NCBI GenBank assembly: GCA_001275005.1 | Contig: JWZX01002411.1 | Span: 1 to 24,813, forward strand | DNA: 24,813 nt | From: Chrysochromulina tobinii | Lineage: Eukaryota > Haptophyta > Prymnesiales > Chrysochromulinaceae | Direction of reading: 5' to 3' | Shown: positions 4,082 through 4,796 of the stretch, one piece after another | Numbering within the stretch: the stretch's first letter is position 1 | Layout: every line of letters starts with the position of its first letter | Program-made: the position numbers and the translations under genes | The notes under the pieces: model-generated | What the model was told of the DNA's origin: nothing | Seen by the model: the letters and a program-made list of their open reading frames with translations, nothing else | The model's database searches: none

Positions 4082-4796
4082 ATGCAAATCTTCGTCAAGA
4101 CCCTCACGGTGCGCGGCCCGCGCGTCCACCTGGCGCCCGCCGGGTTCGCTGTGTCCGCCGCGCCCGCCGTGCATGCGCCCTCTCTTCGGGCGTCCACTGA
4201 GCAAAGCTTGTGCCCTTGTGTTTGCAGGGCAAGACGATCACCCTTGAGGTGGAGCCTTCGGACTCCATCGACAATGTCAAGGCCAAGATCCAGGACAAGG
4301 AGGGCATCCCCCCGGATCAGCAGCGCCTCATCTTTGCGGGCAAGCAGCTGGAGGACGGCCGCACCCTTTCGGACTACAACATCCAGAAGGAGTCGACGCT
4401 CCACCTCGTTCTGCGCCTCCGCGGTGGTGGCCACAAGTCCAATCCGTGGAAGAAGGCGCACTCGAAGATGGGCTGGAAGTGGAAGAAAAAGCGCACCAGG
4501 CGCCTCCAGCGCAAGCGCAGGTAGCTGCCGCCCCGCGCCGCTCGACTCTTCGACCTCTCCCCCCCCAACACGGGGCGCCAAGCCCCCACATCCTCTACCG
4601 CCCCGTCGCGTGCCCGCGTCGCGAAGCCCCCGTCGCGCACCGCCCCCCCTTCCTCCCCTCCCCTGTCTCCCAAGCTCCACCCTCCCCCTGTTGCGCCCCC
4701 GATCGCGCTGCCGCTTCTCGAATCGCCTTCGTTGCCGCCTTCTCACCGCTGCCTTTGCTTCACGCTCGCAGGAAGATGCGCCAGCGCTCCAAGTAA
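4082..4796 (+). CDS. Ubiquitin fused to ribosomal protein eL41 (three exons, 114 aa)
   Basis: Joining exons 4082-4108, 4228-4520 and 4772-4796 gives 114 residues: a complete 76-residue ubiquitin ending LRLRGG, a 13-residue linker ([13 protein letters not shown]), then 25 residues from MGWKWKKKR to KMRQRSK. The last 25 match eL41, one of the smallest ribosomal proteins, in length and in about 20 positions as I recall the family. Both introns are GT-AG and restore known sequence exactly across each junction: LT/GKT in ubiquitin, and a split Arg codon before KMRQRSK in eL41. Deubiquitinases normally cut after ubiquitin Gly76, so the gene should yield free ubiquitin plus a 38-residue eL41 with a basic N-terminal extension. 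The usual ribosomal partners of ubiquitin are eL40 and eS31; eL41 is unexpected. The ATG has a good context (gccgccATGc). Confidence 0.93.
4109..4227 (+). other. Intron 1 of the ubiquitin-eL41 gene (119 nt)
   Basis: It begins GTGCGC and ends in a pyrimidine-rich tract TGTGTTTGCAG. Removal joins codon 9 (Thr) to codon 10 (Gly) of ubiquitin in phase 0, and the resulting ubiquitin reading is intact. Confidence 0.95.
4521..4771 (+). other. Intron 2 of the ubiquitin-eL41 gene (251 nt)
   Basis: It begins GTAGCTGCC and ends CACGCTCGCAG, with a very C-rich interior. The intron splits an Arg codon (AG/G, phase 2) inside the 25-residue eL41 part, leaving the last seven residues KMRQRSK and the stop in exon 3. 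Without splicing, translation stops at a TAG immediately after the exon, losing the eL41 C-terminus. Confidence 0.95.

Follow-up and report, generated by a model that had tools for sequence, protein, structure and literature searches.

Two ribosomal proteins, eL40 (UBA52/UBI1-2) and eS31 (RPS27A/UBI3), are made as precursors in which a single N-terminal canonical ubiquitin ending in LRLRGG precedes a small basic tail, and release by a deubiquitinase is presumed for both. The reason for joining ubiquitin to ribosomal proteins has been called a mystery, as has the choice of eL40 and eS31 as its partners (PMC8122580). A chaperone role has been described for ubiquitin in yeast Ub-eL40 and Ub-eS31 (PMC6721733), and processing of FUBI-eS30 (FAU) in human cells requires the di-glycine (PMC8354635). 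The first-pass annotation of the locus described here knew of no ubiquitin fusion with eL41. However, Martin-Villanueva et al. 2021 (PMC8122580) count eL41 with the handful of rare cases of a ribosomal protein fused to ubiquitin, and PMC11354881 repeats this mention. That survey was restricted to domains sharing at least 80% identity with yeast ubiquitin across 80% or more of its length, and eL41 proteins with a more diverged ubiquitin-like (UbL) domain therefore fall outside it. The available portions of the literature on ubiquitin-L41 fusions contain no mention of a haptophyte Ub-eL41, a diverged UbL-eL41 or a diverged UbL-eL40.

The window analysed, the whole stretch of 24,813 nucleotides on contig JWZX01002411.1 of the haptophyte Chrysochromulina tobinii, carries a gene in which ubiquitin is joined to eL41, with the following parts.

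4082-4108, + strand: exon 1, start codon and ubiquitin residues 1-9 (MQIFVKTLT), from the joined translation
4109-4227, + strand: intron 1, 119 nt, GT-AG, phase 0, with a break also at this site in 7 of the 117 matching proteins
4228-4520, + strand: exon 2 (whole), from the joined translation
4228-4428, + strand: first part of exon 2, ubiquitin residues 10-76, ending LRLRGG, from translation and Pfam
4429-4467, + strand: middle of exon 2, the 13-residue N-terminal extension of long-form eL41, from alignment to stand-alone eL41
4468-4520, + strand: last part of exon 2, 17 residues of the eL41 core and two bases of the next Arg codon
4521-4771, + strand: intron 2, 251 nt, GT-AG, phase 2, within the eL41 core, at the same position in 9 of 117 matching proteins
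4772-4796, + strand: exon 3, the end of eL41 (KMRQRSK) and TAA, from the joined translation

The three exons join into 345 nt encoding 114 residues, namely ubiquitin (1-76), a 13-residue linker and a 25-residue eL41 core. Pfam places ubiquitin (PF00240) at residues 3-74 with 111.7 bits against a cut-off of 25.4, and Ribosomal_L41 (PF05162) at residues 90-114 with 32.7 bits against a cut-off of 22.3, the latter spanning profile positions 1-25 of 25. Translation and Pfam thus agree with the earlier description of a full ubiquitin, a 13-residue linker and eL41 in the joined exons. As the junction between ubiquitin and eL41 lies within exon 2, it is independent of any splice call. The canonical LRLRGG directly before the eL41 tail is, as read from the sequence, a putative cleavage site, and the tail does start GHKSNPWKK as first described, so that a cut here would release an eL41 of 38 residues. 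A complete N-terminal ubiquitin, the LRLRGG end and a complete ribosomal protein tail are all present, which places the gene among the ubiquitin-ribosomal protein precursors. By frame reading, retention of intron 2 would lead to an immediate stop (AGG TAG), giving ubiquitin and a truncated eL41.

Two features flank the gene. A tandem array of TGAGTACGAGG (8.4 copies, window positions 3860-3957) lies about 125 bases upstream of the ATG, and a 5' UTR intron is possible because most of its units hold AG/GTGAGT, which resembles a perfect splice donor. Downstream, an open frame on the + strand (5006-5923) starts MFSGIVEEMG... and presumably corresponds to a riboflavin synthase alpha chain, which it resembles.

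The 13-residue extension begins right behind Gly76, at the site of the initiator Met in stand-alone relatives. With Met placed in front, the C. tobinii tail aligns without gaps over positions 1-39 to eL41 of Toxoplasma (5xxu, E 4e-11) and Plasmodium (3j79, E 4.4e-10), and it then has the 14-residue N-terminal part with [YFW]KK that precedes the RWKWKKK core in long-form eL41. Stand-alone eL41 of dinoflagellates (Effrenium, P0058; and, as a fragment of 30 residues, Gymnodinium catenatum, P0143) reads MAHKSNPYKKARSKFRWKWKKK..., that of Perkinsus (P0061) MAHKSNPYKKARAAM... and that of Theileria (P0079) MSHGASRYKKAHAKM.... Since the core of these dinoflagellate proteins begins with Phe, translation cannot start at an internal Met in them, which makes the long form the real one. 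Archaeal eL41 has 36-37 residues. Hence, the extension, which had been put forward as new, is ordinary in the stand-alone 39-residue eL41 of Toxoplasma, Plasmodium, Perkinsus, dinoflagellates and Theileria. Its creation by the fusion is ruled out, as stand-alone relatives already carry the same extension, and ubiquitin has therefore taken the place of the initiator Met. The suggestion that fusion overcomes the difficulty of translating only 25 codons is weak, given that a stand-alone 39-codon gene is translated in alveolates. In archaea, h27, h44 and h45 enclose the extension near the P site, and eL41 is bound more strongly by the small than by the large subunit (PMC7005279). The Plasmodium extension enters an 18S pocket and was termed Pf-specific (PMC4086275), a view that needs correction in that the extension is also found in other alveolates and in the fused proteins.

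A protein search with residues 70-114 of the C. tobinii precursor as query identified 117 proteins among 141 candidates, with completeness limited by a candidate step that rests on word sharing. As sorted by script, eL41 is preceded in 88 of the 117 matches by ubiquitin, by a ubiquitin-like domain or by the end of such a domain, and the check for ubiquitin before eL41 in relatives, run here on public proteins, was thus positive. An in-frame ubiquitin of 57-100% identity precedes eL41 in 46 matches. Of these, 36 have a complete eL41 core, which in the other 10 is interrupted by an intron or frame shift or by the end of the contig. A weaker or partial domain is found in a further 26, comprising 25 with a diverged leader and P0035, whose canonical ubiquitin is partial (39 residues at 74% identity), and 16 are fragments beginning shortly before the di-glycine junction. 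The others are stand-alone eL41 (23) or of other kinds (6). A whole Ub-eL41 of 114 residues is represented by P0005 (JGI, 68 member sequences). P0008, from Prymnesium parvum (taxid 97485; MMETSP/EukProt), is also a ubiquitin-eL41 protein, without a stop after eL41 so that it reads on, and the transcript-derived P0012 (MMETSP) is without the ubiquitin residues KTLT. The diverged leader followed by eL41 in P0089 belongs to a protein of the pelagophyte Chrysophaeum taylorii; most of the 117 matches are environmental sequence, and the label 'pelagophyte-type' is taken from P0089 alone.

Gene structure recurs together with the architecture. As counted from printed lists, nine of the 117 matches depart from the eL41 sequence after the same ...KRR as at the site of intron 2, and exon 3 lies further on in another frame in five of these nine; a break at the ubiquitin T9/G10 boundary, the site of intron 1, was counted in seven in the same way. 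An additional break before ESTLHL occurs in 12 matches, and Met follows directly after Gly76 in 14. Two other types of eL41 tail, DSRYKK and HGCAYKK, each resembling stand-alone eL41 tails of other groups, were seen behind canonical ubiquitin in P0066, P0067, P0069, P0072, P0073 and P0106, the last of which has lost the di-glycine (VAAG). These may go back to several separate fusion events or to a single old fusion followed by losses; the eL41 tails are too short for a tree. A virus or prokaryote origin was looked for in viral_contigs and genome_contigs, where 59 and 300 stretches matched the pattern, none was confirmed, and no locus was found.

Both polyubiquitin repeats on contig C369 encode the same 76 residues as the ubiquitin of Ub-eL41, although silent differences affect 21 and 24 of the 76 codons. 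It is therefore judged that the ubiquitin half has been kept as a working ubiquitin. It is likewise identical, over 64 residues and with 29 codon differences, to the ubiquitin of a ubiquitin-thioredoxin gene. At that locus (L007, G000:C1835:16533-16721), ubiquitin is in frame with a domain holding WCGPC, which we take to be thioredoxin-like. Other ubiquitin sequences were noted in the assembly. A variant at L003 (G000:C1548:7305-7520) lies behind an apparent signal and transit peptide (MARLFLLVSLVCASVGA...) and is possibly the ubiquitin of the compartment around the plastid. By eye, the ubiquitin domains at L005 (G000:C904) and L008 (G000:C1665) stand in very long open frames beside histone H2A-like sequence.

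The check for a separate eL41 gene, run on the 53-Mb C. tobinii assembly, which is perhaps incomplete, found none, and Ub-eL41 is the sole eL41 match. Among 50 stand-alone eL41 proteins (23 from the first search and 27 new in the second), none contains HKSNPWKK. Within the limits of the assembly and of a search by word sharing, the fusion looks like the only form of eL41 in lineages with the HKSNPWKK tail. When eS31 was sought in the same assembly, the family search at default threshold scored two candidates and reported none, the search at max_evalue 10 gave two weak places (E 0.008 and 0.33) that were apparently spurious on reading, and the yeast tail gave no match. This suggests that the assembly may be incomplete and is not proof of eS31 loss; a second eL41 gene could lie in the missing part. 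One match to eS30 (L014) was found, with no ubiquitin-like domain in its open frame, to which the search for such a domain was confined, earlier exons being outside its scope.

The reading preferred here, to which we assign a probability of about 85%, is that the gene encodes a ubiquitin-ribosomal protein precursor with an eL41 (also eS32) tail, which would work in the manner of Ub-eS31 and Ub-eL40 and in which ubiquitin replaces Met. Translation would give the 114-residue precursor, and a cut by a deubiquitinase after Gly76 would yield one functional ubiquitin and one 38-residue eL41, the same length as the stand-alone relatives have after Met removal. The freed ubiquitin would enter the pool, and the extension of eL41 would fit into the 18S pocket. 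Because the N-terminus of eL41 lies in a pocket of small-subunit rRNA in Plasmodium and Pyrococcus, ubiquitin would have to leave before or during assembly. Likely benefits would be that ubiquitin and a ribosomal protein are supplied together, and that a tiny basic peptide gains a cis-acting chaperone or an aid to its expression.

One residue of the core bears on whether the eL41 half is in use. Core position 2 is Gly (GGC, 4471-4473), so that the core reads MGWKWKKK and departs from the long form in the Arg expected here. Related cores have Arg at this position in 154 of 155 cases and Cys in one (P0024), the 155 being those recognised among 169 matches of two pooled searches; the pattern found no core in the other 14. 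By our own count on the archaeal sequence, the equivalent residue in Pyrococcus eL41 is Arg15, which is in contact with an acetylated cytidine that is conserved in eukaryotes (PMC7005279). The Gly would be expected if the locus were a decaying or spare copy whose eL41 half is missing its key Arg while a different eL41 gene supplies the ribosome. Such a situation is very unlikely, as the assembly has no other eL41 match, everything else at the locus is intact (splice sites, reading frame, remaining core residues and all 76 residues of ubiquitin), and a single C-to-G error suffices to explain the Gly. The codon may be a single-base error (CGC to GGC) or a real variant and, if it is not a base error, the C. 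tobinii copy of eL41 could be altered or weakened.

Another possibility is that ubiquitin stays on eL41, either as a component of the ribosome or to act as a degradation signal, comparable to the reportedly uncleaved Ub-eS31 of Giardia. Some relatives have features that would suit such a fate. In 15 matches with a tail of the HKSNPWKKS[TA]AK type, ubiquitin ends RL[CDEK]GAG or similar (12 with G-A-G, two with G-S-G and one with G-G), and P0014 and P0121 also read G-A-G. In this group, the ubiquitin of the contig-encoded P0047 has decayed to 57% identity. However, 12 of the 15 come from MERC, and three (P0041, P0044 and P0047) from contigs. As MERC is a protein-level assembly, chimeras are possible in the group with the altered cut site. 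An alanine between the glycines accompanies the non-cleavage of Giardia Ub-eS31 (PMC8122580), but the C. tobinii gene has an intact LRLRGG/G (the slash marks the junction), and the di-glycine is retained in 25 of 25 diverged UbL-eL41 matches. The rRNA pocket around the N-terminus of eL41 in Plasmodium (PMC4086275) and Pyrococcus (PMC7005279) would, moreover, be too tight for ubiquitin. An uncleaved product of the C. tobinii gene is thus very unlikely. That the fusion is an artefact of assembly or annotation, with a ubiquitin gene and an eL41 exon adjacent by chance, is hardly credible even though the exon joins are known from genomic DNA alone and one core residue (Gly) is odd, as the same architecture with conserved introns occurs in the independent sources JGI, ENA, MMETSP/EukProt and MERC, and the uninterrupted ubiquitin/eL41 junction in genomic DNA within exon 4228-4520 refutes a chance join there.

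In 25 of the eL41 matches, identity between the leader and ubiquitin amounts to only 25-43% across 39-76 aligned residues, and in all 25 the di-glycine stands directly before the eL41 extension. Among the 17 of these leaders that were aligned, R74 and K63 are lost in all 17, R72 in 16 and K48 in 14, while G75-G76 is kept in all 17. For P0089, AlphaFold yields a ubiquitin fold at a mean pLDDT of 83.9, with ubiquitins as the top PDB matches at a target-normalised TM of about 0.9, though the model is drawn towards that fold because nine rows of its input alignment were canonical or partly diverged ubiquitin. The Pfam ubiquitin score of P0089 (23.3) falls just under the cut-off of 25.4, and that of P0091 (48.6) lies above it. 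A predicted ubiquitin fold, low identity and a kept di-glycine, the combination that marks a leader like that of FUBI-eS30, thus appear in the relatives and not in the C. tobinii gene. The diverged UbL-eL41 seems to be novel, as the survey of the literature gave no report of it in print.

A diverged leader was also found on another ribosomal protein of C. tobinii. Its eL40 (L011, G000:C1717:27922-28281) lies behind a strongly diverged ubiquitin-like domain ending VGG/VIEPSL. A search of public data with this domain gave 36 matches of 58 candidates, with P0171 identical to it; 34 of the 36 have GG/VIEPS, P0206 reads AG and P0189 is cut short. The model of P0171 (mean pLDDT 71.2, poor in the eL40 part) matches ubiquitin. 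Canonical ubiquitin in C. tobinii therefore occurs in polyubiquitin, before eL41 and as part of the thioredoxin fusion, and not on the one eL40 found.

The diverged leaders suggest that a folded leader with a cut site may be worth keeping once it is no longer usable as ubiquitin, and this would fit the chaperone view derived from yeast Ub-eL40 (PMC6721733) better than ubiquitin supply alone. A wider proposal, which has about an even chance of being correct, is that eL41 is the third main ribosomal partner of ubiquitin, and that ubiquitin and its diverged derivatives have switched ribosomal partners in haptophytes, pelagophytes and probably more algae. Canonical ubiquitin would then be on eL41, with a degenerate but still cleavable leader on eL40, in the C. 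tobinii lineage, and a dedicated FUBI-like leader would be on eL41 in the pelagophyte-type proteins, the leader being retained as a chaperone or processing tag after losing its use as ubiquitin. The matter is of consequence for why such fusions exist: co-supply predicts a conserved ubiquitin, whereas a chaperone or processing role predicts just the fold and the cut site. A third ubiquitin partner, an eL40 leader that is not ubiquitin, and diverged leaders keeping little but fold and di-glycine together separate these hypotheses.

In their Pfam survey, Martin-Villanueva et al. 2021 (PMC8122580) likewise list a protein that joins ubiquitin to eL41, which is compared here by its mention alone. 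In the uncleaved Ub-eS31 of Giardia (PMC8122580), the alanine between the glycines is shared with one group of relatives, whereas C. tobinii has the normal di-glycine. The Ub-P1, Ub-actin and Ub-NiSOD proteins of algae (PMC6332867) are likewise lineage-specific ubiquitin fusions of algae with complex plastids; the term 'L41' is absent from the main text of that article. With Ub-eL40 and Ub-eS31, the C. tobinii precursor shares the single N-terminal canonical ubiquitin, LRLRGG, the small basic tail and presumed release by a deubiquitinase. However, its tail is not one of the two classical ones but eL41 (PF05162), the smallest ribosomal protein, and the eL40 of C. tobinii itself bears a diverged ubiquitin-like domain. 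As in FUBI-eS30, the diverged relatives carry a ubiquitin-like leader with a di-glycine before a ribosomal protein, but here the tail is eL41 and not eS30, and the leader in C. tobinii is canonical ubiquitin.
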